Below are positions 10,567 through 38,440 of a stretch of 38,440 nt of DNA, piece after piece. The stretch is taken from contig JAAWIS010000029.1 in assembly GCA_022796475.1 (NCBI GenBank), positions 1-38,440 on the forward strand. Direction: 5' to 3'. Under the pieces are notes generated by a model. That model searched no databases, was not told the DNA's origin, and saw only the letters and a program-made list of their open reading frames with translations. Source of the DNA: Lachnospiraceae bacterium (GTDB taxonomy: Bacteria > Bacillota > Clostridia > Lachnospirales > Lachnospiraceae). A program made the position numbers and the translations under genes. Positions within the stretch are counted from its first letter, which is position 1. Every line of letters begins with the position of its first letter.

Positions 10567-10607
10567 ACGATTCCTTTTCCAGTCTAATGCAATTTCTTTT
10601 TAACTTT

Positions 10608-11753: not shown

Positions 11754-11762
11754 TATCTTCTC

Positions 11763-12971: not shown

Positions 12972-13069
12972 AATCTTCTCCTCCTAGTAGATGAGTGTAA
13001 GGTTTCTTCTCACAATAGCTAATTCTTACCTGGTTTTATATTTCTGCATTTATCATAAAATGAAAGAAA

Positions 13070-14353: not shown

Positions 14354-14407
14354 GCATAATATCCCTCAAATTTTGTGATTAAGTTTTGGATGCTTACGTG
14401 CCAGTTC

Positions 14408-16927: not shown

Positions 16928-17058
16928 AACGGCTTTCCTCCTTATTTTCCGATTTTAATTCACTGCTTAATTTCCCTTTATCAATAAAATGTAATCTTAA
17001 ATAGTTACAACAAAACTAATTTTCAAAATCTATAAAACTGCTATATTTCAGATCGTAC
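16928..17058. other. Intergenic gap inside the glycan operon
   Basis: This 131-bp AT-rich gap is one of the longer ones in the block. I see no clear promoter or terminator. It separates the pentose-type activation genes from the uronic-acid genes upstream and could hold an unrecognised internal promoter. Confidence 0.4.
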
Positions 17059-17970: not shown

Positions 17971-18032
17971 TCAATCTCTCAATATATATTCAAATTTACA
18001 AAAATTTTTATTTTTTGAATTCTATAACATTC

Positions 18033-19193: not shown

Positions 19194-19327
19194 TGCTAGT
19201 TCCTCTCTTTAATCGCCTTTTCTATAGTTCGAAAGATACATTTTACATCCGTTTATCTTTGCAGTCATCTATGTATAGGCATTACCATCAAATTAGATAA
19301 TCTTGATTTTCTATAAAGATTTGTTTT
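19194..19327. other. Intergenic gap upstream of wbpE-like gene
   Basis: This 134-bp AT-rich stretch between two leftward genes has no gene and no convincing hairpin followed by a T-run. An internal promoter is possible but not obvious. Confidence 0.35.
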
Positions 19328-20641: not shown

Positions 20642-20652
20642 ATTAAGTCCTT

Positions 20653-21738: not shown

Positions 21739-22157
21739 TATTTTCCCTCCTGAAAATTTCCTAAAAACAGAATTTTATCATCAGGCACAAAATTTCTTAA
21801 TTCATTATAAATTTCCGCATAATGCTTAATTGATGTGATCACTACTATCTGATTTTGATATTCGCATTGAAAGGCATCAAAATTGATAACAGGGATATTC
21901 AAACCATCTATCAGCAGTTTTCCACTTTTATCCACAACTGAAATCACATGAACAATATCTTTTACTGCACGGAAAAATTGGATTCCTAAGTATCCGCCTC
22001 CATATATGTATAATTCTGAAATTCCAGATTTTTTAATTTGAGAATCCAGTTGTCTTTCATCTAAAAGCCTGCCCATCATCTCATAACATGCTGATAGGAC
22101 ATCTACCTCATTTGCATACAAATTAATCAGTTCATCTACATTATTACTTTGTCCCAT
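21738..22157 (-). CDS. Stand-alone Rossmann-like domain protein
   Basis: The start at ATG 22157 (MGQSNNVDELINLYA) is chosen for its AAGGTG site; 15 upstream in-frame codons lie inside the previous gene. This gives 139 residues. Residues ~40-139 are the locus-typical Rossmann-like domain: ISELYIYGGGYLGIQFFRAV, VVDKSGK, INFDAF, IVVITSIKHYAEI. It has no fused catalytic domain. It is coupled to the GT4-like gene by a TAATG overlap, which suggests that it works with that enzyme. Confidence 0.68.
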   Translation of the reverse strand: MGQSNNVDELINLYANEVDVLSACYEMMGRLLDERQLDSQIKKSGISELYIYGGGYLGIQFFRAVKDIVHVISVVDKSGKLLIDGLNIPVINFDAFQCEYQNQIVVITSIKHYAEIYNELRNFVPDDKILFLGNFQEGK

Positions 22158-22170
22158 TAAATTCACCTTG

Positions 22171-23244
22171 TCAAAATCTGTCTTTATAATTAATAGTTGC
22201 ACAATCTGTTAGCGGCAATCGAATTGGCATACCGGTATATGCTGACTGATAAATAGCTAATACCAGCTCTAATGCCCTTTTTCCTGCTTCGGCATCAACA
22301 AGAAGCTCTTCTTTTCCGTCAATAGCTGCTATTACATTTTTATATAATTTGGAATGGCCAAAGCCATAAACATTTGGAGGCACTTCGCTGCAGTTTTTCT
22401 TAATCTCCTCTGGTTCATCCAAATCGTCTGAAAATCTCCATTCTTCAATTACATTAACAGCCTGTCCTCCGGCCTTAACTGTTCCTTTTTCTCCAAAAAC
22501 ATAAAGCGTTTCTTCCAAATTCTTAGGATACACATTTGTAGTTCCTTCAACTATTCCATAACTTCCATTAGAAAATTTAATTAATGCGATTCCTAAATCT
22601 TCTGCTTCTATATATGGATGGTTTAGCCTGTCTGTCATCCCGAACACTGTATCAATCTCATCTCCCATCATCCATCGAAGCAGATCGATATTGTGAATGC
22701 ATTGGTTCATCAAGGCGCCGCCATCCTGTTCCCAAGTTCCGCGCCAGGCAGCTTTTTCATAATATGCATAATTTCTGTTCCAGCGTACATGTGCTGTCCC
22801 ATACAGCAGGTTTCCAAATCGTTCTTTCTCCAGAGCCTGACGAATAGCTTGTATTGACTTGTTAAATCGATTTTGATGACATGCGCAAACCTTTACATTT
22901 TTTTCTTTTCCCTTTGCAATAATCGCATCAGCATCTGAAATTGATAATGCAATTGGCTTTTCGATGATTAAGTTACAGCTATAATCTAAACAATCTAATG
23001 CAATTTGTGCATGTTTTCCGCTTTCTGTAGCAATTGCAACCAGCTCCGGTTTCTCTTCTTCCAGCATCTTACGATAATCTGTATATACGCGGATATTCGA
23101 TTCCGATAATTCAAATTTTAAAATTTTATCTTCTATATTGTTCCTTTCTAAATCAACCAACGCAACAATTTCCAGATTATTATTCTTTGCGGCTGCAATA
23201 TGATTTGGTGATATTCTTCCGCATCCGATCAATGCATATTTCAT
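22171..23244 (-). CDS. wbpB: Gfo/Idh/MocA oxidoreductase, WbpB-like
   Basis: This 357-residue protein has an N-terminal NAD-binding GCGRISPNHIAAAKNN, IATESGKHAQIAL and the catalytic EKPIALS lysine motif, then a C-terminal domain with CHQNRFNKSI, GGALMNQCIHNIDLLRWMMG and AEDLGIALIKF. WbpB oxidises C3 of UDP-GlcNAcA; this fits the WbpA- and WbpE-like genes downstream. The start follows GGAGCAAAGGAT. Confidence 0.84.
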   Translation of the reverse strand: MKYALIGCGRISPNHIAAAKNNNLEIVALVDLERNNIEDKILKFELSESNIRVYTDYRKMLEEEKPELVAIATESGKHAQIALDCLDYSCNLIIEKPIALSISDADAIIAKGKEKNVKVCACHQNRFNKSIQAIRQALEKERFGNLLYGTAHVRWNRNYAYYEKAAWRGTWEQDGGALMNQCIHNIDLLRWMMGDEIDTVFGMTDRLNHPYIEAEDLGIALIKFSNGSYGIVEGTTNVYPKNLEETLYVFGEKGTVKAGGQAVNVIEEWRFSDDLDEPEEIKKNCSEVPPNVYGFGHSKLYKNVIAAIDGKEELLVDAEAGKRALELVLAIYQSAYTGMPIRLPLTDCATINYKDRF

Positions 23245-23263
23245 ATCCTTTGCTCCAATCGCC

Positions 23264-24817
23264 TTAGCTTAAAATTAAGTCTATCTCTTTTTGAATTGTA
23301 TTTTTATATCCACATTGCTTTTCTGCCCTTATTTTGGCATTTTCACATTTTTTTAAGAAGTCCTCAGGATGATAATATAAATATTCTATTTCTTCTGCCA
23401 TCATAAAATAATTTTCTCCCTCAAACAAGGAGGCACATTCTTCATCCATAAACTCCTGCATCGGCCCGACATTGCATGTGATCACTGCCATACCTGCTGA
23501 CATGGCTTCACTGGAAGTCACTTGATGAGAGTCCATCCTGGTGGGCGAAAGAAATACTCCGTTTTCTTTAAACTGTTCCTGCATTTGCCCTTGGCTCAGG
23601 AATTCCCGATGTATTTGTACATTTGGATAATTACGTTTTTGCAACTCGCCAAAATTTTCTTCAAATAATTCACCATCACCATATAATTCAAAGGTTAACT
23701 CTGAGAAAAAATCTCTATTTGCCAGTTCAAGAATTGCTTTTGCAGTTAAGTCATTGGCATATGTATGTGCCTTATGGCTTTTTATTGATAATATATGAAG
23801 TCTATCTTTGGCTTCTCTATCCGATACTAAGTAAAATTTATTATCTATAAAATTAGGTATATGACTATAATTATCTGGTAACTCCCCAACATATTTTTTT
23901 ACTCTGTTTTTTAAATAATTTGAAACAAAAATAAAATGCAAATTACTCATTTTAAAAATATAAGCTAAGAATTCAGCACGCTTTTTATCTTGAATATACC
24001 AAGATTCTTTATACTTATTTATCGCATCATCTGAATAGTTAAACCAAGTTCGAAACCAAGGTGTTATCTCATATCCATGACACCAGATAATCATTGGAAT
24101 ATTCATTTTCTTTGCTCTGCCTATAGAATACATTATCTTTTCGTCAATAAAATGAATAAGCAGCTTTTTATATTGCTTTAAAGATAATAAAGACTGAAGC
24201 TCAGATGTTCCTCCCTCATATACCTGAATTCCCTGATAGTAGTATTCGTTAAAAGCTGAATTTTCAATAAATCCGAACGCTTCTACTTGAATTCCATTTT
24301 CAATATACTTCAATACACGCCTATGAGCAAAGGCAGATCTGTGATTATTCTCTTTTGGATAACCCCCATTACAAATCACCAAATAATTTCCTGTTTCTGT
24401 GTTATTGTCGATCAACGACTTAACTTCTTTATAATCCAAATTATGATATTTTATAGTATCTTGCAACTTACTTTTTAAATCCTTTTTATCCGGTTCAGAA
24501 AGTTTTCCAATTATCAAATTAACGCTTTCTAAAAACCCTCCTTCCGGAATAATATTTTCTTTTATTAATTGTGTTCCGATTTGAACATAATACGCACTTG
24601 CAATTACAATCGAAGCATCCTTATATCTACTAATAATGTCATTTGGAGAAATGATATCAAAACCATATCTTTTTGTTCCCCATTTCGATGTATCATTATC
24701 AGAAAATGCAACTATTTTATATCTTGATAAGTATTTTATAATTCTATATGCCTCATCTCCCCGCTCTCCTGTGCCAAAAATAACTATTTTTGTTATCTGA
24801 TTTTCGCGATTTACCAT
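23264..24817 (-). CDS. GT4-like glycosyltransferase with N-terminal Rossmann-like domain
   Basis: Residues 1-~110 of 517 are the shared Rossmann-like domain (KIVIFGTGERGDEAYRIIKY, FSDNDTSKWG, FDIISPNDII, SIVIASAYYVQIG). Residues ~145-517 are a GT-B transferase with YLVICNGGYPKENNHRSAF, IIWCHGYEI, VSNYLKN and the GT4 donor motif FLSPTRMDSHQVTSSEAMSA. The fusion suggests that the Rossmann-like domain positions or modifies a nucleotide-linked substrate for transfer. The start follows AAGGATGATTTTAAG. Confidence 0.8.
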   Translation of the reverse strand: MVNRENQITKIVIFGTGERGDEAYRIIKYLSRYKIVAFSDNDTSKWGTKRYGFDIISPNDIISRYKDASIVIASAYYVQIGTQLIKENIIPEGGFLESVNLIIGKLSEPDKKDLKSKLQDTIKYHNLDYKEVKSLIDNNTETGNYLVICNGGYPKENNHRSAFAHRRVLKYIENGIQVEAFGFIENSAFNEYYYQGIQVYEGGTSELQSLLSLKQYKKLLIHFIDEKIMYSIGRAKKMNIPMIIWCHGYEITPWFRTWFNYSDDAINKYKESWYIQDKKRAEFLAYIFKMSNLHFIFVSNYLKNRVKKYVGELPDNYSHIPNFIDNKFYLVSDREAKDRLHILSIKSHKAHTYANDLTAKAILELANRDFFSELTFELYGDGELFEENFGELQKRNYPNVQIHREFLSQGQMQEQFKENGVFLSPTRMDSHQVTSSEAMSAGMAVITCNVGPMQEFMDEECASLFEGENYFMMAEEIEYLYYHPEDFLKKCENAKIRAEKQCGYKNTIQKEIDLILS

Positions 24818-24852
24818 CTTAAAATCATCCTTATTTACATATAATTCATAAG

Positions 24853-26172
24853 TTAAATAGTATAAATAATATCTTTAATATGTATAATCGGGCAAGTTAC
24901 CTTTTTAGATAAATCTTTAATTATTTGATCGTAATTTTTTAACGGAGTTACTATAATTGCATCTATTTGTTTTAATTCGTTATCTAGAGTATATATACTG
25001 AAATCTGACAAAATCATATCTGCATTTTGATCGATCAAATATTGTATTTCCATTTCTGTATCCTTAAACGCCTCACATAGCTTTAAAGCTACACATCCTG
25101 CTCCATATATAGCAATTGATCTATAATTTCTTTCTCTCAAAAAATCTATAATTTCTTTTTTTTGATAGTTTAAAGAAATCCATTTTTCAAGAAGAAAAAT
25201 CAACTCTTGCTGTTTCGCATTTTTCTCTCTTTGCATCTCTATTGACTCTTTTTTCAAAAAATCGAATGAAATCTCAATACCATTATGATTCATTTGATTT
25301 AATATCGAAAAAAATCCTCTCAAGAATTTTGCTTCCCAGCATAGTTTCAAATATTTATAATAATACAATTTCTTGCATTTTAATTTATCATCCTCTGACA
25401 AGTAAGCAATATATTTATTCAGCGTTTTCCCATTTGATAACATGGAAACTATAATTTTTCTTTTTTTCCCTTCGCTGAAAAAATTGGTTATAGAAGTATT
25501 TCCTCTTCTATAATAAACTAGGCACTGATCTAAATAATAAAATTTAACTTTATTATAGGAAATTCTAAGCCAATATTCATAATCCTCATATGAAATGGAT
25601 TCATCAAAAAATCCATATTTTTCAAACACTTCTCTTTTTATCATAACAGTAGGAGCAGCGATACTATTTCCAAACATTAATTTTCGAAATAAATCCCCCT
25701 TTATAACTCCTGAACTTCGATAAAAATATAGTTTATTTGATTGACTAACCTGAGTACCTTTCCTATATCTATCATTTATAACATATCCATTTGAATATAC
25801 CACGGAACATTGGGGTTCAATCATAAAACATTCTACAAGTTTTGAAATACAATTATACGCCATAATATCATCGCCGCTCATTAACTTACAATATATACCT
25901 CTCACCTTTTTAAGCATAGAATTTACATTATGTGGTATATTTCCGGAATTCCTTTTTCGTTTCAAAAAAGTAACTTTGTGTAATTTTTCTTTTAATTCTT
26001 TCTGATAAGAATCTATGATTTCTACAGTTCGATCTTTAGAAGCGTCATCTAATATAATTAATTCTATATTAGGATAATTCTGCTCTATAATACCTAATAT
26101 ACAATCTTCTATGTATTGTTCATGGTTATATGTTAATAATGTAATAGATACTAAAGGAAAATTATTCTTCAT
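24853..26172 (-). CDS. Family 2 glycosyltransferase with C-terminal Rossmann-like domain
   Basis: Of 439 residues, ~5-290 are a GT2 domain (VSITLLTYNHEQYIEDCILG, LDDASKDRTVEII, and MSGDD as the DxD-type metal site). Residues ~345-439 are the recurring Rossmann-like domain at the C-terminus: SIAIYGAGCVALKLCEAF, LIDQNADMILSD, IDAIIVTPLKNYDQII. The reversed order compared with the neighbouring gene shows that the domain is mobile among enzymes of this locus. AT-rich codon use fits the central part of the locus. Confidence 0.82.
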   Translation of the reverse strand: MKNNFPLVSITLLTYNHEQYIEDCILGIIEQNYPNIELIILDDASKDRTVEIIDSYQKELKEKLHKVTFLKRKRNSGNIPHNVNSMLKKVRGIYCKLMSGDDIMAYNCISKLVECFMIEPQCSVVYSNGYVINDRYRKGTQVSQSNKLYFYRSSGVIKGDLFRKLMFGNSIAAPTVMIKREVFEKYGFFDESISYEDYEYWLRISYNKVKFYYLDQCLVYYRRGNTSITNFFSEGKKRKIIVSMLSNGKTLNKYIAYLSEDDKLKCKKLYYYKYLKLCWEAKFLRGFFSILNQMNHNGIEISFDFLKKESIEMQREKNAKQQELIFLLEKWISLNYQKKEIIDFLRERNYRSIAIYGAGCVALKLCEAFKDTEMEIQYLIDQNADMILSDFSIYTLDNELKQIDAIIVTPLKNYDQIIKDLSKKVTCPIIHIKDIIYTI

Positions 26173-26223
26173 TGTTTATTACCTTTTAATTTATTTTTAA
26201 CTTTCATTGTTTATAATAAACTC

Positions 26224-28003
26224 TTATTCTTTTATTTGAATTTGTTCTAAATCACAAACCGTAATTTTATTCATAATAGTATTCAGCAATTCCATTTTTA
26301 AGTCAAAATTATTTATAATATGATCGGTTCTTTTTAAATATAATTCAACTGCACCATCTGAATAAATAGCTAATTTATATTCTTCAAAAATAAAAACTTC
26401 AAATGCCAATAATTCATGATCGTGTTTCGCCATTTTATATACACATCTAACTTCTGGATTATAAATTTCTGAACGCATTACTTTTACAAAATTATTTTCT
26501 CTAATTATCACCTTTTCTTGTTTCATCAGAGCTATTATAATACTGTTCAACTCTTGAATCGAAGTAAGATTTTTATTGACACCTGATACAGTTTCCGGGG
26601 ATTTCACTGCAAGCGGAACCTGTATAATATCTTCATGAAAAGTAAATTTAGTTCTTTCAATATCCTTTAAGCTGCCCCCCCCGTGGAATTAAAATATTAC
26701 CATGATCAGCATATAAAACCATCCTACACGGTATACACTCTATTAAAGGAATAACAATATCATCAATATACAATAATGCATCTTTCTGCTGCCTTATATA
26801 GTCCTTTTTAATTTGACCTCCGTTTTTGTCTAAATAGTCAAATAAAATATATGAGCCTTTTATTTCAAGTTCTTCACTTGTATATGGATTAGGATATGAA
26901 TAATGACTTTCATACAAGAGATGAATATAAAATAGTCCGTTCTTTTCATTTATCGAATCTACTAAAAAACTCCATATTTTTTCAGTTGCTGTCTGCGAAT
27001 ATGATGTTACTTTAATCATATCATCATCAATATATTCCGTTCCATCCGTATAAAAAAATATATTTCGTTCTTGCTTTTTTGCTTCTTTTATAAAGCGACA
27101 ATTATCACTAACAATCATATTATTTTCATAATATTTAGTTTTTAGATCATCATTTTCACTATAAGCAGAAAGTAAACTTTCATAAGTAGAAGTAGACGCT
27201 GAATACGCATTGGAAAAATAGTACGTATCTCTTTCTAGAAAATCGTGTAAATTCTTCACTCGTTCTTCACATACATCTTTTCTACGAAGCCCGTCTATAC
27301 ATAACATTAAAACATTATTCTCGTTAATACTTCTTAATGATTCAATTTCTAGATCATAAATTTCGTGTAAATTCTTCAAAATTTGGTCTTTTTCGTTTGA
27401 CCTTTTTAATTTATCTGCATACTTAATTGCCGATAAGAAATCTTTAATTTCTATATATTTCTTTATAATCTTTTTTAAGATTTTTTCCTGATCACTTGTT
27501 CCGTTGAAAAGCTGGATTTGCATTGTATTTATACTGCGATATTTAACATATGGGTGCTCTGCTAATTTTGATTCATAATAATTGCCTTCTATATTCATCC
27601 CTGCTTTTTCAAGTTCCTGATAAATATCCAAGTACTTAACGCCTTTATAATTTTCTTCTATATTATCAATTATTTCATTTTTATAAATTCTACTCGAAAT
27701 AATTATTCCATCAATCCCTTTTTCTAGGATTTGCTTTTCATTAATAATTTCAAATCCCTGTTCTTTATTAGAATCCATACCGTTATCAATAATACATTTT
27801 ATTTTTTTTAATTCAAACATAAAATCTGCCATAAGCATTTTTGTATGATTCCCATAACACCAAATTGCTGGCTTTTTACATTCACTTACAAACTTTGTTA
27901 TCGCCTGGGTAATAACAAGATTAAGATTTGCAAAGTTATCTTGATTAATTATCCCAAACATTTTCTGTAAATTTTCATACTTGTTTTCAATTAAGTTCTT
28001 CAA
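26224..28003 (-). pseudogene. Sulfatase-superfamily gene interrupted at a poly-G tract (phase-variation candidate)
   Basis: Translation from TTG 28003 (behind GAGGGGAAGG) gives 448 residues ending shortly after ADHGNILIPRGG, with the stop at 26657. Removing one G from the G8 run at 26682..26675 restores one frame of 592 codons, continuing GGSLKDIERTKFTFHEDIIQ to the stop at 26224. Domains are a Rossmann-like domain (~43-130) and an alkaline-phosphatase/sulfatase-fold domain (~225-560) with LMLCIDG (metal Asp237), NAYSASTSTYES (nucleophile region) and ADHG. Relatives transfer phosphoethanolamine or phosphoglycerol or hydrolyse such groups. As sequenced it is OFF. Confidence 0.82.
26675..26682 (-). 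repeat. Eight-base poly-G tract at the frameshift point
   Basis: Eight G in a row on the minus strand (C on plus) sit inside the coding region just after the ADHG metal motif. Seven would keep the sulfatase-like frame. Runs of this kind slip during replication, and in a locus otherwise rich in A/T runs a G8 stands out. Confidence 0.85.
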
Positions 28004-28074
28004 AACCTTCCCCTCTTATCACTACTTTATAATGGCCATAAAATGGCTATTTACAACTCAAGTCTTCTATAATA

Positions 28075-28689
28075 TCAGGATAAAAATTCACTTAATTCGT
28101 CAATTATTCTTCCTGGCTTATATTCAGCTAACTTTTCCCTACTCATAAACCCATGACTAATTGCTACAGTACTATATCCAATCTTATTTCCAAGTAAAAT
28201 GTCATTTCCCATATCACTAACGAAAATGTTTCTTTTATCTCCTAAATCAGGAATATCTTTTATTACTTTACATAATAATTCTTCTTTCGTTTTACTGCCT
28301 TCTGTTAATAATATTTTTCTAAAAAAACCAAATAGACTTAATCGTTTCAATTCATCGTATAGTCCTGTTTTTGATTGCCTTGCTGTAAGCAAATATAAAT
28401 CAAAACTTTTATCTAAACTGTATAACACATCAAGTGTATCCGGATAATTTTGATCCATATCCAAATAGTATTTTTTTTCTATACTTCTCATCCACTCTTT
28501 ATTAAATTTACTAAATTCAATTTCCGGATACCGCATTTTAAGCAGTTCCTTATGATTTACTTTATCTCTTTTAAGATCCCAGTATTCTTTTTTTGTTAAT
28601 TTGCATTGTGAAACAAGGCAGCAAAAAAGCTTGTACATTCTTTCGGACGAGTCTATTAACGTTCCATCAAGATCAAATATTATATTCAT
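28075..28689 (-). CDS. HAD-superfamily hydrolase, phosphatase type
   Basis: The 204-residue protein has HAD motif I (IIFDLDGTLIDSS, residues ~3-15, nucleophile Asp5 and Asp7), a helical cap, motif II (YLLTARQ) and motif IV (FVSDMGNDILLG). It most likely removes a phosphate from a sugar phosphate or related metabolite. It overlaps the SDR gene upstream by four bases (ATGA), placing it in the same translation unit as the ThDP enzyme and SDR. Confidence 0.82.
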   Translation of the reverse strand: MNIIFDLDGTLIDSSERMYKLFCCLVSQCKLTKKEYWDLKRDKVNHKELLKMRYPEIEFSKFNKEWMRSIEKKYYLDMDQNYPDTLDVLYSLDKSFDLYLLTARQSKTGLYDELKRLSLFGFFRKILLTEGSKTKEELLCKVIKDIPDLGDKRNIFVSDMGNDILLGNKIGYSTVAISHGFMSREKLAEYKPGRIIDELSEFLS

Positions 28690-29573
28690 AAGATTTTATA
28701 CTTTTTAAAATGCTCAGACAGCTTTACTAGACCACTTTCGTAAGGTGTAAAATATTCGTATTTATCAAAAATCGTTCTTACTTTTAAAGCATCATAATTA
28801 TCATTTCTTCCCTTTACTCTGTTTTCGATAATAATCCTCGATTCAGAATTTAAAACCTTAATTACAAGTTTCGCTAAATCAAACACTGTAATTGATTCTT
28901 TTGACACAAGATTAACCTTCCCTATGCCCTTTTCAAATAGTGCAGCATTGCAAATATATTCCGCAGCATCATCTACATATAACATATTCCGATTTTCCTT
29001 GCCAGATGAATTTATTATAATGTCTTCATTATAACTTGCTTTTTTTAAAAAAGTCCCTGTGATTTTGTTATATGTTTCTTCACCAGGCCCATAGATAGCC
29101 CCCAAACGGAGTATTTGAACATCTGTACCATATGGCATAAACTGGTTTAAATATCTCTCACAAACTATTTTAGAAAGAGCATACATATTGTCTGTTGTCA
29201 ATTCTGACTGTTCATCAATTTTTTTACTTTCTTTATAAACGGATACGGAACTAAGAAACACTATTTTTTTAGGAATTTCTGTAAGATTTTCAAACAAATT
29301 CACTGTTGATCTAATATTTTCTATATATCTATTCTCATCATCATATCCCTTTCCTTTAGGTGTAACTGCTCCTCCATGAATGATGCAATCAAACCTTTCA
29401 CCTTGAAAAGCTTCTTTCTCGATATTATAGTTATCATGTATTATGCATTGATACCCGGGAATCGGATTTCTGCTTAATAATGTTATATTCTGTTTTGAAA
29501 CACCCTTTGTTTGAAATTGATCCAATAGTCTTTTTCCAATGAATCCCGATGCTCCAGTTATTAATATTTTCAC
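28686..29573 (-). CDS. Extended SDR: NAD-dependent sugar epimerase or dehydratase
   Basis: This 295-residue protein opens with ILITGASGFIGKRLLDQF (glycine-rich NAD(P) site) and has FLSSVSVY and the catalytic YALSK pair (Tyr-x3-Lys). LRLGAIYGPGEETYN and NRNMLYVDDAAEYI complete the extended-SDR pattern. A nucleotide-sugar epimerase, reductase or 4,6-dehydratase is expected; the substrate is not decidable. Four-base overlaps on both sides link it to the ThDP enzyme and the HAD protein. Confidence 0.82.
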   Translation of the reverse strand: MKILITGASGFIGKRLLDQFQTKGVSKQNITLLSRNPIPGYQCIIHDNYNIEKEAFQGERFDCIIHGGAVTPKGKGYDDENRYIENIRSTVNLFENLTEIPKKIVFLSSVSVYKESKKIDEQSELTTDNMYALSKIVCERYLNQFMPYGTDVQILRLGAIYGPGEETYNKITGTFLKKASYNEDIIINSSGKENRNMLYVDDAAEYICNAALFEKGIGKVNLVSKESITVFDLAKLVIKVLNSESRIIIENRVKGRNDNYDALKVRTIFDKYEYFTPYESGLVKLSEHFKKYKIL

Positions 29574-31279
29574 CTATCTATTTCCTCCAGGTATGGACTC
29601 TGCTTATCTAATCTGTCCAGTCCAAGTAATTCCGGCCTAACATATGTATTGCCATTTAATTCTATCACTATCATCCATGCTTTATCATCTTCAAAGACTT
29701 GGCTTAATCCATTACACTCTGTATAATCTATAATCTTCTTATAATTCATTCCATAAGCAGATGCAATTTTATCTAAAGCCGGTACAGAAAACCCTTTTAC
29801 TGATCCTATGTATCTTCTGCTATAGTACTTTTCATGAATATCACGGATTAGTCCTAATGCATTATTCTTTAATACAATAACTTTTATAGGAATTTTATAT
29901 TCAGAAATCATTTGGAGTTCCTGAATATTCATCTGTAATCCTCCATCACCCATAATAGCAATTGATTTATTGTCTGGATCTGCAAAATAGGCTCCGATAC
30001 TTGCCGGCAATGCATAACCCATTGTTCCTAATCCCCCGGAATTAAGAATCCTAATATCATTTCCTTTCACTCTGAGTGATTGTGCTGCCCACATCTGATT
30101 TTGTCCCACATCAAATGTTATTGTAGCATTTCCCTTGATATTTTCACCAATGGCTTTAATGTAAAGATTGGGATTTATTTCTATTTCCCTGTTAAATTCC
30201 TTATTACTTCTATAAAATGATTTCCATACATTAATCTGCCGTTTCCATTCAATAATATCTGGCATTTTCTTGCCTGAAAGTTCTTTATCTAACTGTTTAA
30301 TAAATTCTCCAATATCACTTTTTATTTGTATTTCATTTTCTATAAAATGTCCAAGTTCAGTTTCATCAATATCAATATGAATAACGCAAGCCTGGCAAGC
30401 AAATAAATTCCTATTTTTTCCTGTTTGACGCATGTCAAGTCTTGAGCCAAGAACTAGAATTACATCCGCATTTTGAATTGCATAATTTGCATATCGGTTG
30501 CCATATGAGCCAATAAAACCAACAAAATTAACATCATTATGAGGCATAACATCCAGTCCCATTAAAGAAGTTACCACTGGTATATTATATTTACAAATCA
30601 AACCTCTAAATTTATCACAAGCCTGTGCTGCTCTTATCCCTCCGCCTGCAATAATTAGCGGACGCTTTGAATATAAAATCTTATCTCTTGCAAAGGATAT
30701 ATCGATATCTTTATGTTTTACAATTTCTTTAAATTCATTATTTTTATCTATACTATACTCTATATCCTGGCCTTGTATATCAACTGGCAGATCAATTACA
30801 ACAGGACCTTTTCTTCCAGTAAGTGCAATATTTATAGCTTTCCTAATTTCATCTATTGCTCTATTTTTCTCCTTAATGGTAACTGCATACTTAGTAATGG
30901 TTTTAACCATGGAGAGAATATCAATCTCTTGAAAACTTTCCTGCCTCACATCCATAGATTTTTTCATTGCGAATGTATGAACCTGGCCAGTAAAAAATAA
31001 TACAGGAACCGAATCACAATATGCATTTGCAATTGCCGTTATTAAATTGGTTGCTCCAGGACCATTTGTTCCAATTGCAATCCCTATTCCAATTTTACTA
31101 ATACGTGCATAGGCATCTGCCGCAAGTCCAGCTCCCTGCTCATGATAAGACTGTATATATTTGATTCCATATTTATCAAATGAATCTATCATATGAGTAA
31201 TAGAACCGCCCTGATATCCGAAAACAGTATCTATGCCCCGACTTGTAAGATATTGTGCTATTGCATCAGATAATTTCAT
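29570..31279 (-). CDS. ThDP-dependent acetolactate-synthase-like enzyme
   Basis: This 569-residue protein has the three-domain layout of acetohydroxyacid synthases. The N-terminal PYR domain carries the cofactor glutamate in YHEQGAGLAADAYARIS. A central domain has PLIIAGGGIRAA and VILVLGSRLDMRQTG. The C-terminal PP domain has the ThDP motif GDGGLQMN with a closing NN. In a nucleotide-sugar locus this could be a YerE-type enzyme that adds a two-carbon unit to a ketosugar, or one that makes an acyl precursor. A housekeeping role in valine synthesis is less likely, since no ilv gene or regulatory subunit is nearby. Substrate assignment is inference. Confidence 0.83.
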   Translation of the reverse strand: MKLSDAIAQYLTSRGIDTVFGYQGGSITHMIDSFDKYGIKYIQSYHEQGAGLAADAYARISKIGIGIAIGTNGPGATNLITAIANAYCDSVPVLFFTGQVHTFAMKKSMDVRQESFQEIDILSMVKTITKYAVTIKEKNRAIDEIRKAINIALTGRKGPVVIDLPVDIQGQDIEYSIDKNNEFKEIVKHKDIDISFARDKILYSKRPLIIAGGGIRAAQACDKFRGLICKYNIPVVTSLMGLDVMPHNDVNFVGFIGSYGNRYANYAIQNADVILVLGSRLDMRQTGKNRNLFACQACVIHIDIDETELGHFIENEIQIKSDIGEFIKQLDKELSGKKMPDIIEWKRQINVWKSFYRSNKEFNREIEINPNLYIKAIGENIKGNATITFDVGQNQMWAAQSLRVKGNDIRILNSGGLGTMGYALPASIGAYFADPDNKSIAIMGDGGLQMNIQELQMISEYKIPIKVIVLKNNALGLIRDIHEKYYSRRYIGSVKGFSVPALDKIASAYGMNYKKIIDYTECNGLSQVFEDDKAWMIVIELNGNTYVRPELLGLDRLDKQSPYLEEIDR

Positions 31280-31354
31280 TTTTTCACCATAGTATTCATA
31301 GTATTCTATTTTTTAATGTTGCCTCTTAAATCTATAATCTTTCCACCTAACCAT

Positions 31355-32422
31355 TTAAAGTACAATTAGTTTATTTTGCATTTCCTCTTTTGAAATCAGC
31401 ATTGGCTCCCTATCCATTGCTCTCAGCCACATAAGCCCATCTGGCAATGGATTGATTTTTTTTCTTAACTCTGGTTTTTTTCCATAGATGGCCAAGTCTT
31501 TAAAAATAACTGGCATATTTAACCCAGCTTTCGTAAAAAAAAGAATTGTTGTAAAAAATCTTGAGATATTTATTTCTGTAGGATTAGGAATTTCATTATC
31601 ATCATAAGCCATATCTACTCCAAAAATACCATGTGGCTCTTTATCAACAGCCTTTATAGCCTTAAGTGCAATATCCGTTACAAGCTCATCACTGCAAGTA
31701 ATTCCAACCTTTGTAACTCCAGTTACACCAGAAGCAGATCTGTTTCCATGAATCCAACCGCTTCTTTTTCTGGTCTGTGCACAAATCAATTCCCCTTCCC
31801 ACCAGATAGATAAAAATGTTACTGTCTGCGAACGAAGTATTTCTGCTGCAATAAACTTTCCCCATCCATCATATCTGTCAATCCATGCTTTAGCCATAGA
31901 ATAGCTATTTGTAGGGATAGATCCTATTCCACCGCCGCCCATAGCTTCTGCTCTAATCCATATTTCACCATTATCATTTCTGAATTTCTCAAATGCACTC
32001 TTTAAGTCATTTTCATCATTGATAAAGATGTTCTCAGGAACAATAATTCCCGCTTTCTTAAATGCTTTCCAAGATTTCCACTTACTAACACAAGTCTCAA
32101 TAACCTCATGACGTGGCATATATATTTTTGTGCCACAAGCCATAATTTCATCTCTAATTAAAGAAGCATGGTATACTTCTAAATCATTTTGAAAATGAAC
32201 AAGATTAGGGCACTCCTTATTTAGGATCTTTAGTAATTCCTTTTTATAAAAAGGATCATTTGCATAAGGTATTACATATTTCCGCTTTGCATTAGATGCT
32301 GCTAAATCTGACGGAATCGCTCCCATACCGATTATTTCTTCTTGTTGGCAACTAAGCAATAAGGAATTAATCACTCCTTCTGAAGGTGTTCCTCCAGCTC
32401 CTGCAATTAATATTTTTGCCAT
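31355..32422 (-). CDS. ATP-grasp ligase
   Basis: The 355-residue protein has an N-terminal Rossmann-like part (ILIAGAGGTPSEGVINSLLL) and an ATP-grasp domain: VSKWKSWKAFKKAG, the Gly-rich lid RAEAMGGGGIGSIPT, GIFGVDMAYDD and the metal-binding EINISR. It resembles the carboxylate-amine ligase/CarB-like proteins found in capsule loci. It sits between an aminotransferase (FdtB-like) and the ThDP enzyme, so it may acylate an amino sugar with an amino acid or other carboxylate. The start follows AGGAGGAAAAGA. Confidence 0.82.
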   Translation of the reverse strand: MAKILIAGAGGTPSEGVINSLLLSCQQEEIIGMGAIPSDLAASNAKRKYVIPYANDPFYKKELLKILNKECPNLVHFQNDLEVYHASLIRDEIMACGTKIYMPRHEVIETCVSKWKSWKAFKKAGIIVPENIFINDENDLKSAFEKFRNDNGEIWIRAEAMGGGGIGSIPTNSYSMAKAWIDRYDGWGKFIAAEILRSQTVTFLSIWWEGELICAQTRKRSGWIHGNRSASGVTGVTKVGITCSDELVTDIALKAIKAVDKEPHGIFGVDMAYDDNEIPNPTEINISRFFTTILFFTKAGLNMPVIFKDLAIYGKKPELRKKINPLPDGLMWLRAMDREPMLISKEEMQNKLIVL

Positions 32423-32477
32423 TCTTTTCCTCCTAATCTAATGCAATGCATCGCTGCAATCTCTAAAACCTAAGGTT

Positions 32478-33572
32478 TTATTGAAACTGATTAACTGTAT
32501 TGATCACAAATTCCTGCTCCCTATCCGTCATTCCAATATACAACGGTAATGACAACACTGTTTTTGCATATTTCTCTGTTATAGGAAGACTTCCTTCTTT
32601 TAAATTTAAATATTGATATGCCTCTGACAAATGAGGTGGTATTGGATAGTGTATAATAGTTCCAATTTCATTTTTAGTTAAATAATTTATGAGTTCTTGG
32701 CGTTTTTCTACCCTAACCACAAATTGATGCCAAACATGTGTTGCCTTTTCACAAATTTGAGGCAAAAAAATCTGTTCGTTTTTAATTTCTTTAAGATAAC
32801 GATTACTTATTTTTGTTCTCTCTTCATTTAGTTCTTTTAAATGAGAAAGTCGAACTCTTAAAAGGCCTGCCTGCAGCTCATCCAATCTTGAATTAGCTCC
32901 AATAATGCGGTTATAATAACGTTTTTCACTCCCATAATTTCTAAATACACGTATTTTTTCTGCAAGTGTTTCATCATTGGTTATAATAGCTCCTCCATCA
33001 CCAAAAGCACCAAGATTTTTGGTCGGATAAAATGAAAAGCATCCTACATCTCCAAATGTTCCTGTCATTTTTTCGCCAAAGTAGGCGCCATGTGACTGGG
33101 CACAATCTTCTATTACTTTCAAATGATATTTTGATGAAATTTGTAATATTTTATCCATATTAGACGCTTGCCCATATAGGTGAACTACTAAAATTGCTTT
33201 TGTTTTATCTGTTATTTTTTCTTCTATACATTCAGCATCTATATTAAAAAATTCATCAGGTTCTACAAGCACTGGTGTTGCGCCATTTATTGTAATTCCC
33301 ATTATGCTTGCAATATATGTATTTCCTTGTACGATAACTTCATCGCCTTTTCCAATTCCTAAACACTTGAACGCAATCCACAATGCATCAAGCCCGCTTG
33401 CTAATCCAACACAACATTTCGCTTTTGTAAAAGATGCAAATTCTGTTTCAAAAGAAGATAGTTCATTTCCTAATACATACCATCCTGATCTTAAAACTTC
33501 TAAAGCCTTCCTTTCAAACTCTTCTTGATACAAGCAAAATCCACGTTCTAATCTATTTGGTATGATTTCCAT
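32478..33572 (-). CDS. fdtB: PLP-dependent sugar 3-aminotransferase, FdtB/QdtB-like
   Basis: This 364-residue DegT-family aminotransferase has [38 protein letters not shown] and [19 protein letters not shown] with the PLP lysine. It lies directly downstream of an FdtA-like ketoisomerase, the same pairing that makes dTDP-3-amino-3,6-dideoxyhexoses (Fuc3N or Qui3N). Which C4 epimer is made cannot be read here. The start follows AAGGAGAATGG. Confidence 0.83.
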
Positions 33573-33665
33573 CGATAACCATTCTCCTTATCTCAATATA
33601 ATTTAAGATATAAGCTATGTACTTCAGCAGACTTGTTAGCATATATGCCACATTAGAACTTTTTA

Positions 33666-34100
33666 CTATTCCGTATTCACGTCCCCTTCATTGTTCTTAG
33701 CTTTTAACATAACAGTTTTTTTAAACTCGTCATAATTTCTAATATAATCTTCTTCTTTATAAATATCCGAAGCCAAAACCAACAAAACAGCATCCGGTGA
33801 AAAATCATACATTTCACGCCATATATCATTAGATACATATAGTCCTTCATATGGCTTCTCTAAATATACAACTTTTTTTTCATATCCGTTGTCTAGTAAT
33901 ATTTTGCATGTTCCATGTATACAAACTAAAATTTGCTCTAAACTTTTATGTGCATGAAATCCTCTACGAATATTTTCTTTTGTATTGTACATATAATATA
34001 CTCTCTTAATTTCAAAAGGTATATCGCTGTATTCTTCTAATGCTACCAACATACCTCTCTCATCTCCGTGTTGTTGAAACGCATATTTTATTACTTGCAT
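33666..34100 (-). CDS. fdtA: dTDP-4-keto-6-deoxyhexose 3,4-ketoisomerase, FdtA/QdtA-like
   Basis: This 144-residue single cupin carries the family marks: DERGMLVALEE, FEIKRVYYMYN, RGFHAHKSLEQILVCIHG (metal/active-site histidines) and GLYVSNDIWREMYDFS. FdtA and QdtA shift the keto group of dTDP-4-keto-6-deoxyglucose from C4 to C3. The substrate must come from RmlA/RmlB encoded elsewhere, since neither is in the window. ATG follows GGAGGATAGA and overlaps the ribosome-binding end of the upstream gene. Confidence 0.86.
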   Translation of the reverse strand: MQVIKYAFQQHGDERGMLVALEEYSDIPFEIKRVYYMYNTKENIRRGFHAHKSLEQILVCIHGTCKILLDNGYEKKVVYLEKPYEGLYVSNDIWREMYDFSPDAVLLVLASDIYKEEDYIRNYDEFKKTVMLKAKNNEGDVNTE

Positions 34101-34101: not shown

Positions 34102-36663
34102 CTATCCTCCGATTTTCAATTTTTGAAATATCAGATATCCTGTTTCAAAATTTAGCAGCTTCTGTATCTTGTTTTTTTTCTCCATTTGCTTTAAGAAAAT
34201 ATCTAAGTTTATTTCTGTACTATTTTTTTCAAATATTATCCCATCCTTTTTCAAATCAAATGATGCTATCTGTTGTGCAATTTTTTCTAGCTGTGAATCA
34301 ATTTCAATAAAGTGTTGTTCTACTTTTCCGGTGTCTATACTAATCTCATATAAGCATTTTTCTAAAATATTCATCATAAAAATCTTGCTGTTGAGATATG
34401 ATATATTGGAAAACGTATTATATTTCCACCAACCTGATTCAATTTTATCTCCACAAATTGAATCACTAAAATCCGCTTTTTTCAATTCACAGGTTTGTAT
34501 ATTGAATTCTTTAATCTCTTGTTCTGAAGATTCTGGAATCATAAATAAACTATTCTCCATTAGAATGCTATCCCATATTTTCATTTTAACATCGTAATAG
34601 CAAGAAATATCAGAAACTCTATTTGTGCTTATATCATCCATATTAATTAAAATAATTTTTCCATATTTATCTAGTAAAATCATTTCTTGGTTAGTTAATT
34701 TACACATTGTTACATATTGATTCGTGACGTTTCCAATATTAATAGTTTTACCTGTTTCTGTACTCAAATTAAACTCAAAAATTGTATTGCTATTACAGAT
34801 AGGCAAATAAATTTTATCATTAAACTGCGTATATCTCGATGTAAAAATCGGAAGATCTTTTTTCGACAATTGTGATATTATATCAAATTCTAAATATTCT
34901 ACCTCCTTAGTATCGGTATTAATTTTAAGGATATAGGAATAGGAAATTGGAAATAGATATATCCATTCCTTCCACTTTAAACAAATCTTAAATTTTTCTC
35001 CTCTATTTTCGCATTCATTAAAATGAATACAAGAAAATGTTTCATGGATAATATGATAGAAAAATATAGTTGTTCCTCTTGAAGGTATCAATACCAATTC
35101 GTCTTTTACTTTTTTTAAACTATAAAAAGATCCATGCTTTTTCTCGTTGTTAGGTATTCCGATAATCTTTTTTACTTTTTTCGTCTTTAAACTATATTCG
35201 CATAAAAAGTTATAAAAAAAAGAAACAAGCCATATACTATCTTTTTCTACTTCAAAGATGCCATTTGACCATAAGAAAAATTTAAATTTACTGGAATTTT
35301 TCTTATTAAGATAATCAACATTTTGATACATAATAGGCTGCCCTGTTTCTTGATACAATTGCACAATCGAACTGCCATCCCCATAATACCCATCACTCAA
35401 AGCAATCGCCCGATCTAGATCCACCGTATCATCATAAATCCCCCATCCCTGCCTGCAATATTCTTCTACAATCCGATCATACCGTTTCTCTAATTCCGGT
35501 CTTACTGAAACAATTGTGGCACGAAATAACGGATGGGGCCTCCAAAGCAGCGCCACCTCTTCCTGATTTTTCTGAAATACTTCCAGTACATCTTCTATCT
35601 TGTCCAGCATCTTTTCCCCATACCGCAAAAGAGCTGTCAAACCAGTGTTATAAAATATGATTTTTTTCCAATTTCCATCTTCTTTCTCAATCACATTACG
35701 CCACTCTTTGGGAACTGATACATCTTCTTTTTTTGTTGTCAGTACCTTATCCATCTTAGGCGAACCTAATCCCAGTATCTTTTCTTCCCAATACTTTCTT
35801 GTATCTCCACCTGAATGTTCCTTCATAAAATCAGTCAGTACATTCACGTATATTTTTTTCATATTTTCTGATTGTACAATCGCCTTATCTGCATTAATAA
35901 TTCCTTGCGTAATGCAAAAATGCTTCATGCCTTCCACATCTGCTTCATTATCTGGATCTATCTCTCCCAGTATGAAATATGGAATATAAATTAGTTGATC
36001 TGTAAATTTTTTTAAATTCCCGGAATAAAAGAATGGGTGGACGCTGGTTACAGTATTATTATTATCATATGGATTATGGATAAAAATCATATCTGGCCTG
36101 CGTTCCTCAAAATCATATTCGTCATATCTTGTAATTGGAACGTATTCCGGATATAAATCTCCTTCGTAATGCTCTTCCTGGAAACTTCCGTCTGGATTTT
36201 TATCGTAATATGGAATGGGAATCACGTAAGCATCTGTATCCTCATCCTGATCTGCTGCTTTCCACACGCTTTCTAAAGAGTCCCACATAGAAGCCTTGTA
36301 TGGCAGAAATACCACTTCTTTCCTGTCATCTGGCATATTGTATTGGATTTGATTTTGTAGATCAGTAAGCTGCTTCCTGATTTTTTTTGAAATCTTTCGG
36401 CAGGCATTCTCATCTGCCGTAGCAATGCTCATTTGATAGATTTTTTCACAATAGTCCTCCAAAATTTCTACAAGAGGACGATATTCTTCTTCAAATTTTT
36501 CCAGATATGTACCAATCTGTATTGCTGCATCCTGACACTGTATAAACACATCGGCCAAATCTTCCGGGGCTGCTGGAAGAGATTTTACAACAGAGCTATT
36601 GGCCTCCATCATTGTATTAAGTAACTTTAATAGATCCTTTTTTTTATGCCGCTCCAATATCAT
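34102..36663 (-). CDS. Large CDP-glycerol-transferase-like protein with C-terminal beta-propeller
   Basis: Of 853 residues, 1-120 are helical. ~125-445 form a GT-B/CDP-glycerol glycerophosphotransferase-like domain with FHNPYDNN-type loops, FYNTGLTALLRYGE, LLWRPHPLFRA and the donor-site DGYYGDGSSIVQLYQETGQP. From ~460 to 830 there are five to six similar blades (LCEYSLKTKKVKKI, ILKINTDTKEVEYL, FEFNLSTETGKTI, KEFNIQTCELKK, YEISIDTGKVEQH), fitting a beta-propeller. It is the first gene of the operon, with ATG behind GGGGAGG. Base composition shifts to much richer A/T at about 35,330, at the domain border. Confidence 0.8.
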   Translation of the reverse strand: MILERHKKKDLLKLLNTMMEANSSVVKSLPAAPEDLADVFIQCQDAAIQIGTYLEKFEEEYRPLVEILEDYCEKIYQMSIATADENACRKISKKIRKQLTDLQNQIQYNMPDDRKEVVFLPYKASMWDSLESVWKAADQDEDTDAYVIPIPYYDKNPDGSFQEEHYEGDLYPEYVPITRYDEYDFEERRPDMIFIHNPYDNNNTVTSVHPFFYSGNLKKFTDQLIYIPYFILGEIDPDNEADVEGMKHFCITQGIINADKAIVQSENMKKIYVNVLTDFMKEHSGGDTRKYWEEKILGLGSPKMDKVLTTKKEDVSVPKEWRNVIEKEDGNWKKIIFYNTGLTALLRYGEKMLDKIEDVLEVFQKNQEEVALLWRPHPLFRATIVSVRPELEKRYDRIVEEYCRQGWGIYDDTVDLDRAIALSDGYYGDGSSIVQLYQETGQPIMYQNVDYLNKKNSSKFKFFLWSNGIFEVEKDSIWLVSFFYNFLCEYSLKTKKVKKIIGIPNNEKKHGSFYSLKKVKDELVLIPSRGTTIFFYHIIHETFSCIHFNECENRGEKFKICLKWKEWIYLFPISYSYILKINTDTKEVEYLEFDIISQLSKKDLPIFTSRYTQFNDKIYLPICNSNTIFEFNLSTETGKTINIGNVTNQYVTMCKLTNQEMILLDKYGKIILINMDDISTNRVSDISCYYDVKMKIWDSILMENSLFMIPESSEQEIKEFNIQTCELKKADFSDSICGDKIESGWWKYNTFSNISYLNSKIFMMNILEKCLYEISIDTGKVEQHFIEIDSQLEKIAQQIASFDLKKDGIIFEKNSTEINLDIFLKQMEKKNKIQKLLNFETGYLIFQKLKIGG

Positions 36664-36824: not shown

Positions 36825-37080
36825 TTTGAATAGAACCTTTTTTACACAAATAAGGTACATTGGTCACCCTCTCCGGTGATGCATAAATCTCTGCTTCGCT
36901 CCTTAGTACATCATGGAAAAATTCCATGTTCCCAAGGTCCTGGCATACCCAATCCGCAGTAGGCTCTTGCCTTAGCTGCCTTCTAATGCCGACTTGATTT
37001 TGATATAATCATAAACAGTCCTGCCAGTCCATTTTCTGGTAAAATTGCGGTTTTGCCCCAATTTACCTGGTAAGCTGTTT
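36825..37080 (-). ncRNA. Candidate guide RNA (omega-RNA-like) downstream of the TnpB-like gene
   Basis: The ~250 bp after the TnpB-like stop codon hold no gene but are structured. CATGGAA-AAA-TTCCATG is a perfect 7-bp hairpin (36912..36928), TCACC-CTCTCC-GGTGA another (36864..36879), and GTAC/TAAGG blocks around them can pair. TnpB and its nuclease-dead relatives use a guide RNA made from exactly this position, with the scaffold at the 3' end of the gene and the guide following it. On the minus strand the structured part ends near TTCTATTCAAACG (about 36825). Scaffold end and guide are not determined; RNA existence is inferred. Confidence 0.45.
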
Positions 37081-38391
37081 CTATGATCCGCCATTCTCCT
37101 GCCCACGCTTTTTTGCATTGCAGGCTGCATTTGTTCTTTCTTCTGCCTGAAAACCACAGGATAAGCAAACAAATCTTCCATCCCGTTTCTTACCTGGTTC
37201 CCCGCATCGGCTGCACTCATTACTGATATCTTTGCCCATAACTTCAACAATTTTAATGGACTGCTGCCTGCACTTTTGTTTTAAACGGCTGCGGATATAT
37301 CCTCTTTGCCACAAGGTTACAGAGTGATTAATTGATTTGCTGACACCAGAGGGCTTAGAACCTGGAAGCTTTGGAAGATATAAGGTTTCTGGTTTTTCAG
37401 TCTGAAGAAATCGGTTTAACTCCTGATTGATATAGCTGTGGAGCTGTTCCTCATACCGATTTTTTGTTCGGTTATATTTTTTTCTTCCTGGATTATTCTC
37501 TTTGTTCCGATAGTAGCTCCCTGCCTGCTTCCGAATCCAATCCGCATATTCCATGTGATACTCACCAAATTGTACCCCATACTTGTGGCCCTGATCGGTA
37601 GTCAGCATATCCTGCATTCCCATAGCTAATCCTACTTGATTCCTGTAATCCGGATGGCTGCGAACCGCCACGTAAACAGGAACATGAATTTTCAGCTTCC
37701 TCTCTTTGGGATATAACTGGATATAAAGCTGGGACTGATACTGGTTGTTATCTGTTAATGGAACAAATATCCGTTTTCTCTTTTCCTTAATAGAAAGGTA
37801 GATTCCATGGTTTCCATACCGGTATGCCCGCTCTCCTGCTGAAAATCCCTCTGCTCCCTTGGTATGAAGCTTTTCCTGATGCTTCCTTGCCTGACGGCGA
37901 AGATAGTTTTGAAGCTTTTTAATCTCTACTTCCTGCTCCAGCTTTTCTCTCTGTTTTTGCATATCACCTGAAAGAATGATTTCCTTCCGGTTTAAGACAG
38001 ATTCAAACGCCCCTCCTGCCTTCATAAGAAAACGAAGATAATGCTTTTCTTCTGGGGTGAAATTTTCATTCTGTCCGATCCGCTTCTGAATGATTTCCCT
38101 TACCCTGGTCCATTGGCCTTTGATATCACTTAAAGCCTCAAAAACTGCCAGATAAAAGTATACGGAAGGCAGCCCTAATTCTTTCCTTAAGCCGCTGTTA
38201 GTCATTTCATTCTGGATCGTATATCCAGGGTAAAGCTTCGGCAGGCTGGAAGGGCCGCTATAGCGTTGGTATACATACTCCTTGACCTTACTGTAGTCAG
38301 CGGCAATTTCCAGAAGTTTTCTCATATCTTCTTCCGAAATCGGCTCTTTGTTATACTGATGAACGGTCTTGCATACGGTATTTCGCGGCAT
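37081..38391 (-). CDS. TnpB-like protein with all three RuvC acidic residues replaced (nuclease-dead, TldR-like candidate)
   Basis: This 436-residue protein of the IS605/IS607 OrfB (TnpB) superfamily has an N-terminal beta/helical region, a long helical bundle (~95-180), a split RuvC fold and a zinc ribbon (Cys393, Cys396, Cys409, Cys412: CSRCG, CLSCG). RuvC-I reads VGLAMGM with Ala256 where active TnpB has Asp. RuvC-II reads TLYLPKLPG with Pro340 in place of Glu. RuvC-III reads ERTNAACN with Arg419 in place of Asp. The frame is intact over full length, which argues for selected function without cleavage. No TnpA is seen. The start follows AAGGAATCAAA. Confidence 0.85.
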   Translation of the reverse strand: MPRNTVCKTVHQYNKEPISEEDMRKLLEIAADYSKVKEYVYQRYSGPSSLPKLYPGYTIQNEMTNSGLRKELGLPSVYFYLAVFEALSDIKGQWTRVREIIQKRIGQNENFTPEEKHYLRFLMKAGGAFESVLNRKEIILSGDMQKQREKLEQEVEIKKLQNYLRRQARKHQEKLHTKGAEGFSAGERAYRYGNHGIYLSIKEKRKRIFVPLTDNNQYQSQLYIQLYPKERKLKIHVPVYVAVRSHPDYRNQVGLAMGMQDMLTTDQGHKYGVQFGEYHMEYADWIRKQAGSYYRNKENNPGRKKYNRTKNRYEEQLHSYINQELNRFLQTEKPETLYLPKLPGSKPSGVSKSINHSVTLWQRGYIRSRLKQKCRQQSIKIVEVMGKDISNECSRCGEPGKKRDGRFVCLSCGFQAEERTNAACNAKKRGQENGGS

Positions 38392-38412: not shown

Positions 38413-38440
38413 ATTCTCAAAAAGTGTAGGTTTTGAGAAT
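38413..38440. repeat. Perfect 10-bp inverted repeat upstream of the TnpB-like gene
   Basis: ATTCTCAAAA (38413..38422) and TTTTGAGAAT (38431..38440) flank an eight-base loop, 22 bp before the TnpB-like start codon at the window edge. It may be an operator, a leader hairpin or an insertion-sequence end; the flank needed to decide is outside the window. Confidence 0.6.

Follow-up and report, generated by a model that had tools for sequence, protein, structure and literature searches.

The 38,440-nucleotide (nt) contig JAAWIS010000029.1 of a Lachnospiraceae bacterium (assembly GCA_022796475.1), called the window here, carries near its right end a gene for a nuclease-dead homologue of TnpB, followed by a structured RNA and a long surface-glycan operon. 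We suggest that this protein is probably an RNA-guided repressor of the TldR type, which some Lachnospiraceae have domesticated and which would coordinate rival surface-glycan operons. In the mechanism that we propose, inversion of a promoter would turn a locus on, so that the dead TnpB protein and its guide RNA are made together with the operon. The protein-RNA complex would then read GTNTAT as its target-adjacent motif (TAM), bind other glycan operons in the leader or in the first gene and act there as a roadblock to transcription, and mismatches in the seed would spare its own operon. For the window guide, we predict as target the opening gene of a glycan locus on another contig of the genome (C155, positions 27874-27890).

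The window protein belongs to the TnpB/Cas12 superfamily. It scores above the cut-off of Pfam PF07282 (35.1 bits, cut-off 26.3) and below that of NCBIfam guided_TnpB (52.6 bits, cut-off 100). The RuvC D/E/D triad, the hallmark of active TnpB, is absent. A reading of the window made earlier from its sequence only had described an intact TnpB frame with Ala256, Pro340 and Arg419 in place of the RuvC acids and with a conserved zinc ribbon. Alignments to the triad-intact TnpB of the same genome (L001) and to two intact relatives (L157 and L158) agree with it: Ala256 replaces the RuvC-I Asp (VGLAMG versus IGLDLG in the intact sequence), Pro340 the RuvC-II Glu and Arg419 the RuvC-III Asp, and the zinc-ribbon residues Cys 393, 396, 409 and 412 are unchanged across 14 sequences. 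Since the AlphaFold model is weak near the RuvC-I site (predicted local distance difference test, pLDDT, below 50 at residues 239-274), the assignment of the catalytic residues rests on sequence alignment and not on structure. Asp261, which had been feared to stand in for a RuvC acid, is not conserved; it is Asp in the window protein only and Thr in 26 of the 35 homologues.

The loss of the acids extends to the whole family. We collected 38 copies, one of them a remnant, and counted 35 intact proteins, L061, L072 and L022 having been excluded beforehand. Not one of the 35 has an acid at any of the three catalytic positions, where the residues are Ala (21) or Ser (14), Val (22), Pro (10) or Ala (3), and Lys (31) or Arg (4). 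The divergent subclade of L007, L008 and L010 (33-36% identity) likewise lacks the catalytic acids. In the 18 closest homologue pairs the ratio of nonsynonymous to synonymous substitution rates (dN/dS) is 0.058-0.161, a sign of purifying selection, and this upholds the earlier argument that acids lost with no stop or frameshift speak against decay. Thus, as judged from residue loss in all 35 homologues and from the low dN/dS, the window gene is a member of a conserved nuclease-dead family of some Lachnospiraceae and not a decaying copy.

Homologues occur in 6 of 98 related genomes and, within the window's family, in 17 of 397 sampled genomes (E up to 1e-100), the window's own genome being counted both times, and at 14 loci of named contigs, mostly from Lachnospiraceae. 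A class-level sample gave matches in 4 of 391 genomes (E up to 1e-30), namely the window's own genome, one more of the same family, and two of another family with intact TnpB (L157 and L158). Copy number per genome is seven plus a remnant in Sporofaciens musculi (S. musculi), seven in G098, four in Dorea sp. 5-2 (five rows, two of which are pieces of one copy), one in the window genome and one to three in the others. Phage and plasmid sequences gave only distant TnpB, all from Thermus records. L157 and L158 keep the RuvC D, E and D, are 79% identical to each other and 29-32% identical to the window protein, and are homologous to it over the full length. Several hundred nucleotides of conserved intron-like sequence lie upstream of their intact TnpB, which we take to be a group I intron and the elements to be IStron-like; Rfam has no family match for this part.

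The RNA behind the gene has the character of a guide-RNA scaffold. Of 37 sequences, 9 longer than 260 nt and the near-duplicate L069 were dropped, and RNAalifold on the remaining 27 gave 30 pairs, 21 of them with compensatory changes. Adding a pseudoknot, ATTGG:CCAAT, brings the pairs to 35, again 21 with compensatory changes; 97.4% of cells then pair, versus 28.8-48.2% when the partner is slid, and covariation is 0.401 compared with 0.170 when shuffled. Because the pseudoknot hardly varies, it has no covariation support here, and its support is the counterpart CTGG:CCAG seen by eye in the intact relatives. Rfam holds no family that the window RNA matches at gathering score, only chance-level matches. 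The earlier idea of an RNA-guided protein has thus gained a structured guide-RNA-like element after the gene, with 21 of 35 pairs compensated.

The start of the guide was read from the intact relatives. The last ~50 nt of the element downstream of L157 and L158 are identical and end in TTTTTAGAACCAG, after which unrelated sequence follows at once. This junction is taken to be where the element ends and the guide begins in these two. Since they diverge right after the pseudoknot strand, the guide of the dead family is read as beginning just after CCAAT. Among 51 guides so defined, T2, T6, T7 and A8 are invariant, and positions 1, 3, 4 and 5 differ by transitions only. Given this start, the guide of the dead family is conserved (RTRYCTTATT), unlike the guides of transposons. 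The guide ends of L060 and L084 were set by hand and L170 was excluded by hand. The same end is visible by eye in most of 23 raw sequences (not in L007, L008 and L010; L004 is incomplete).

With a GTNTAT flank, exact guide matches fall in further glycan loci of a genome, some of them within genes. When the window guide was searched genome-wide with TAT in front and at most one mismatch, the only matches were its own RNA and C155:27877-27891, and the reversed control gave one match. The C155 site, GTGTAT-GTACCTTATTT, fits the window guide at 11 of 11 positions. It falls on codons for VYVPYF in a gene that, by eye, opens another glycan locus and shares 37% identity with its homologue in the window, the gene at 34102-36663. 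The window genome has only two PF07282 matches, both on contigs other than C155. The corresponding site of the window's own gene, ATTTAT-ATTCCATATTT, has 3 mismatches in 11 to its own guide. The sequence-only reading had cast the protein as a regulator of the adjacent glycan operon or of another surface gene; the mismatches tell against the adjacent operon, and the exact match on C155 favours another glycan locus. A 10-nt fit at the same codons occurs also in genome G797, between the guide of L162 (ATACCTTATT) and a member of the gene family on contig C3; GTATAT stands in front, and L162's own next gene differs from this guide by one. Across the sequence examined there are 10 exact 10-nt matches, of which 7 carry the GTNTAT flank; the background of GTNTAT is 0.0014 per position, and the flank occurs at that distance in 8 of 572 CTTATT words. 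This count excludes the RNAs themselves, among them the end of L084's own RNA (G009 C16:51385), and the low-complexity guide ATATTTTATT, which fits 14 places in G101 and 4 in G098, none of them flanked. Targets of 10 nt are plausible in view of the 6-nt seed of the flagellin TldR given in the part of PMC13418256 considered here.

A second group of sites stands in the leaders. Of the 38 loci, 15 carry the motif GTWTAT-RTRYHWTATT, with 19 occurrences in all. These are always on the strand of the gene, 9-192 nt behind the TTATT end, and the opposite strand has none in the sequence examined for these 38 loci. With 18 loci added, there are 21 leader sites in 17 of 56 loci. Ten whole genomes hold 39 matches versus 17 for the reversed pattern. 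All 15 GTWTATGT matches in these genomes fall at dead-TnpB loci; GTWTATAT matches are found also elsewhere, several of them in leaders of surface operons without dead TnpB (15 places, by eye). Genome-wide searches for target sites covered the window guide and this leader pattern. The downstream repeats had at one stage been considered as a CRISPR-like mini-array; since their shared part is the guide and the part before it a fixed flank, they are read as target sites, and the mini-array was dropped. A Fisher test on one repeat triplet (p 0.011) belonged to that reading and is superseded by the reshuffling test given below.

Two further observations concern these leaders. GTWTATATATTATATT or a close variant lies from a few dozen to ~200 nt from the start of surface, glycan and other operons without dead TnpB (by eye; L098, L099, L103, L105, L109, L111, L115, L117, L120, L121 and L123, near position 1501, or 949 in L103), and no guide in our set fits these sites. 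In L161 (G714 C30:301291-302580), a copy with an open frame, the pattern located no downstream RNA, but the site AGTATAT-ATATCTTATTATATAAAAC is kept; nearly the same 25 nt recur in a leader of another genus (L105).

The guides appear to avoid the leader sites of their own loci. Twenty leader sites have an own guide; over 10 nt not one of them fits it, and five fit a sister guide of the same genome exactly. The mean own mismatch is 3.25, versus 2.67 when guides are reshuffled within genomes (p 0.0013, or 0.0024 after removal of three near-duplicates or remnants); the absence of any exact own fit has p 0.022, or 0.049 after the same removal. Over 12 nt the test on the mean own mismatch gives p 0.0017. 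In S. musculi, the GTGCC guides of L056, L059 and L060 match L054 and L055 exactly, and the GTATC guides of L054 and L055 match L058. We tentatively sketch a wider scheme, which is possible though we do not commit ourselves to it: a genome-wide RNA-guided dominance network of up to seven phase-variable loci, with near-identical guides that differ by seed transitions, each silencing defined rivals and never itself. In S. musculi, L056, L059 and L060 would silence L054 and L055, and these two would silence L058. The guide would be tuned to the [IV]Y[IV]PY[FY] codons of the rival first gene, with copies of the site in the leaders of operons that start with another gene.

Several points weigh against an RNA-guided repressor of rival operons. 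The guide matches are just 10-13 nt long. The patterns used to find the guide ends already include most of the conserved letters, which makes the conservation of the guide partly a matter of construction, and 6 of the 18 later loci had no fitting end (L169 and L165 were set by hand; L161, L159, L171 and L172 were excluded). Five of the seven flanked matches are leader sites that helped define the flank; thus only the two coding matches test it, and of these the window match was found with TAT in the pattern and the G797 match without. Three of the ten exact matches lack the flank (G009 C16:52185, G098 C14:44628 and G102 C12:27260). Because the sequence examined for matches was mostly glycan loci, where a match lies counts as independent evidence for the window guide and the genome-wide leader pattern alone. 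Of the coding sites (21 in 11 genomes), two are fitted by a guide from their genome, one over 11 nt and one over 10; in the remaining 19 the best guide has 1-4 mismatches in 11 positions. Most leader sites (15 of 20) have no exact sister guide in the genome, and over 12 nt only 3 of 20 have one; at that length the absence of own fits is to be expected (p 0.57). One leader site in G098 is best matched by the guide of its own locus, with one mismatch. Lastly, a second class of sites (GTATTATATT, ATATTATATT) matches no guide.

These points leave room for other explanations. The one that survives best is operon-specific antitermination, in which the protein would bind the RNA of its own leader and carry polymerase through the long glycan operon, with no DNA target. 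UpxY, LoaP and the EAR RNA are precedents for operon-specific processive antitermination, and processive antiterminators are usually located at the head of long operons; the gene and its RNA head very long glycan operons indeed. Nevertheless, we consider this explanation unlikely, since it does not account for letters after the pseudoknot that recur behind a fixed flank, for own sites that mismatch more than reshuffled ones, or for L161 with its site in place and no RNA found by pattern.

A different possibility is that RTRYCTTATT belongs to the scaffold and that the guide starts later. The leader sites would then have nothing to do with the guide, being for example promoters or old RNA ends, and the coding matches would be accidental. 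The AT-rich stretch after TTATT does vary as a guide might, and the similar class of sites before surface operons without dead TnpB could hold a -10 box. However, the sequences of the intact relatives part immediately behind the pseudoknot strand, both coding matches are flanked by GTNTAT, and guides taken from the later start gave no convincing target. Searches with them were genome-wide for the window and two S. musculi loci, and also covered 400 kb around the S. musculi copies and the loci of each genome. The only other match of the window guide so defined, with 3 mismatches, is in a glycosyltransferase gene; for the L059 pattern, two of three further matches were inspected, one near a hydrolase gene and one in an AraC-type gene. 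This start was dropped once the intact relatives showed where the guide begins, and we now regard it as quite improbable.

Autorepression, in which each complex would dampen its own operon through the leader site, is a very unlikely reading. It would suit the position of the leader sites, 9-198 nt beyond the TTATT at which the RNA of their locus ends, and the single-mismatch fit in G098, but none of the 20 own guides is exact and the own mismatch exceeds that of within-genome reshuffling. At positions 1-6, the seed of the TldR studied in PMC13418256, own sites mismatch 3.25 on average. That the dead TnpB is kept only to aid promoter inversion, or is a neutral relic, is hardly credible: inverted repeats lie upstream of most copies and recombinase genes directly upstream of a few, but copies without a short inverton keep gene and RNA, and purifying selection and a covarying RNA speak against a neutral relic.

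Promoter inversion, the switch in the proposed RNA-guided repression, is supported by the sequence upstream of the gene in most copies. Most copies have inverted repeats of ~15-30 bp, often dyads themselves, ~100-120 bp apart and enclosing a TTGAC-N-TAnnnT promoter. One scan of the 38 copies found repeats in 29, some of them weak. The promoter points away from the gene in 23 and toward it in two (L074 and L075, both in G102), four have repeats with no promoter called, and nine have no repeats. The window is scored among these nine because the contig ends inside the arm at 38413-38440; the dyad there is probably the gene-proximal arm of an invertible promoter whose other arm would lie off the contig. 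For L055, L022 and L023 the score rests on longer or wider repeats; L066 and L078 have weak repeats. Repeats with the promoter in both orientations, as in a phase-variable invertible promoter, are thus found in the relatives, and the window shows one arm. A search of S. musculi for the dyad (up to 3 mismatches) gave nine sites, all at copies of the locus or at the remnant, and none for the reversed control. In L016 and L025 the gene directly upstream encodes a Phage_integrase-type recombinase, and by eye this holds for L159 too. Long fold-back repeats around the inverton are seen upstream of the gene in L067 and L075 (296/298 and 135/135 nt); perhaps these are assembly artefacts that hold both promoter orientations.

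The features of the window are collected in Table 1. The tldR-like gene is the first of a co-directional operon that encodes glycosyltransferases, a UDP-sugar dehydrogenase, DegT aminotransferases, FdtA, a thiamine pyrophosphate (TPP) enzyme and a nucleotidyltransferase; Pfam places eight of ten operon proteins in sugar-related families and one as a TPP enzyme, and one has no match. A conserved neighbourhood had been named as a check on the earlier idea, and a surface-glycan context does recur: in 13 listed neighbourhoods the dead TnpB gene mostly precedes surface or glycan genes (by eye). No tnpA was noticed by eye in these neighbourhoods, and no search aimed at it was made. The oppF clade of TldR has a dead TnpB beside oppF; by eye, and with no profile search for them, neither oppF nor fliC nor csrA was recognised in the window or the 13 neighbourhoods. 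An AAA-ATPase_like/PDDEXK_9 gene recurs upstream of L012, L014, L017, L018 and L019 (by eye; Pfam run for L017 only). The left end of the window carries a repetitive NSGNWNSGD-type protein at the contig end (2-481) and, by eye, a tyrosine-recombinase-like open reading frame (5054-6055) with phage-like genes.

Table 1. Features of the window, listed from the gene end of the contig leftwards.
Feature	Position	Strand	Remarks
Dyad ATTCTCAAAA-n-TTTTGAGAAT, directly upstream of the gene	38413..38440	.	At contig end
tldR-like gene, nuclease-dead TnpB/Cas12f-fold protein, 436 amino acids	37081..38391	-	Intact open reading frame
Guide-RNA scaffold (conserved core 36859-36992, 5' part less certain)	36859..37070	-	Covariation
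3' pseudoknot strand CCAAT	36859-36863	-	Within scaffold
Predicted guide GTACCTTATTTGTGTA; first 10 nt fit family RTRYCTTATT, length assumed	36843..36858	-	Start from L157/L158
First downstream gene, 853 amino acids, family motif [IV]Y[IV]PY[FY] with coding DNA similar to the guide	34102..36663	-	No Pfam match
Rest of co-directional surface-glycan operon	7383..34100	-	Left border approximate, by eye

Known RNA-guided transcription factors mostly control a handful of partner genes, for example that of flagellin. If our reading is true, a shared, seed-tuned guide lets phase-variable coat operons exclude one another, and the display of one surface glycan at a time by a gut commensal becomes testable. 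The natural guide-target pairs with self-avoidance would also be a test set for the seed and TAM rules of dead TnpB proteins. TldR itself is a known kind of system; the glycan partner, the shared guide and the self-avoidance look new. The words polysaccharide, glycan, capsule, glycosyl and Lachnospiraceae are absent from the main text of PMC13418256, as a word search showed. We found no report of a glycan-linked dead-TnpB clade in the open literature, though Wiegand 2024 and Altae-Tran 2023 fall outside this search and may list the clade.

The closest known system is perhaps to be seen in the CsrA-associated TldR clade of Oscillibacter and Flavonifractor, which, in the parts of PMC13418256 considered here, shares with the window family a dead TnpB homologue with a guide RNA, a chromosomal location, several loci per genome with predicted cross-targeting, targets inside open reading frames and upstream promoter inversion. 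It differs in its partners csrA and fliC, a hin invertase and a FliA-dependent promoter; the window family has glycan operons, a family-wide guide consensus and self-avoidance instead. The flagellin-remodelling prophage clade and the oppF clade likewise combine a dead TnpB with a guide RNA and a short seed (6 nt), but the former is prophage-borne and the latter lies beside oppF, and the same parts of PMC13418256 note no inverton for them. Cas12m, as far as PMC10442227 was used here, resembles the window family in a RuvC domain without cleavage of double-stranded DNA and in silencing by binding; it differs as a CRISPR effector with array-derived guides. The Clostridia TnpB proteins L157 and L158 share full-length homology and a homologous RNA pseudoknot with the window family, and are set apart by their intact RuvC acids and by sequence after the RNA end that differs between copies. 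UpxY and UpxZ of Bacteroides are first genes of phase-variable capsule operons and suppress sister operons. They are a NusG-like antiterminator and its inhibitor, without a guide RNA, and are not homologous to the window protein; the likeness would lie in standing at the head of phase-variable operons and suppressing sister operons. Thus, if our reading is true, the window family is a Firmicutes counterpart, based on RNA guides, of capsule cross-inhibition in Bacteroides.
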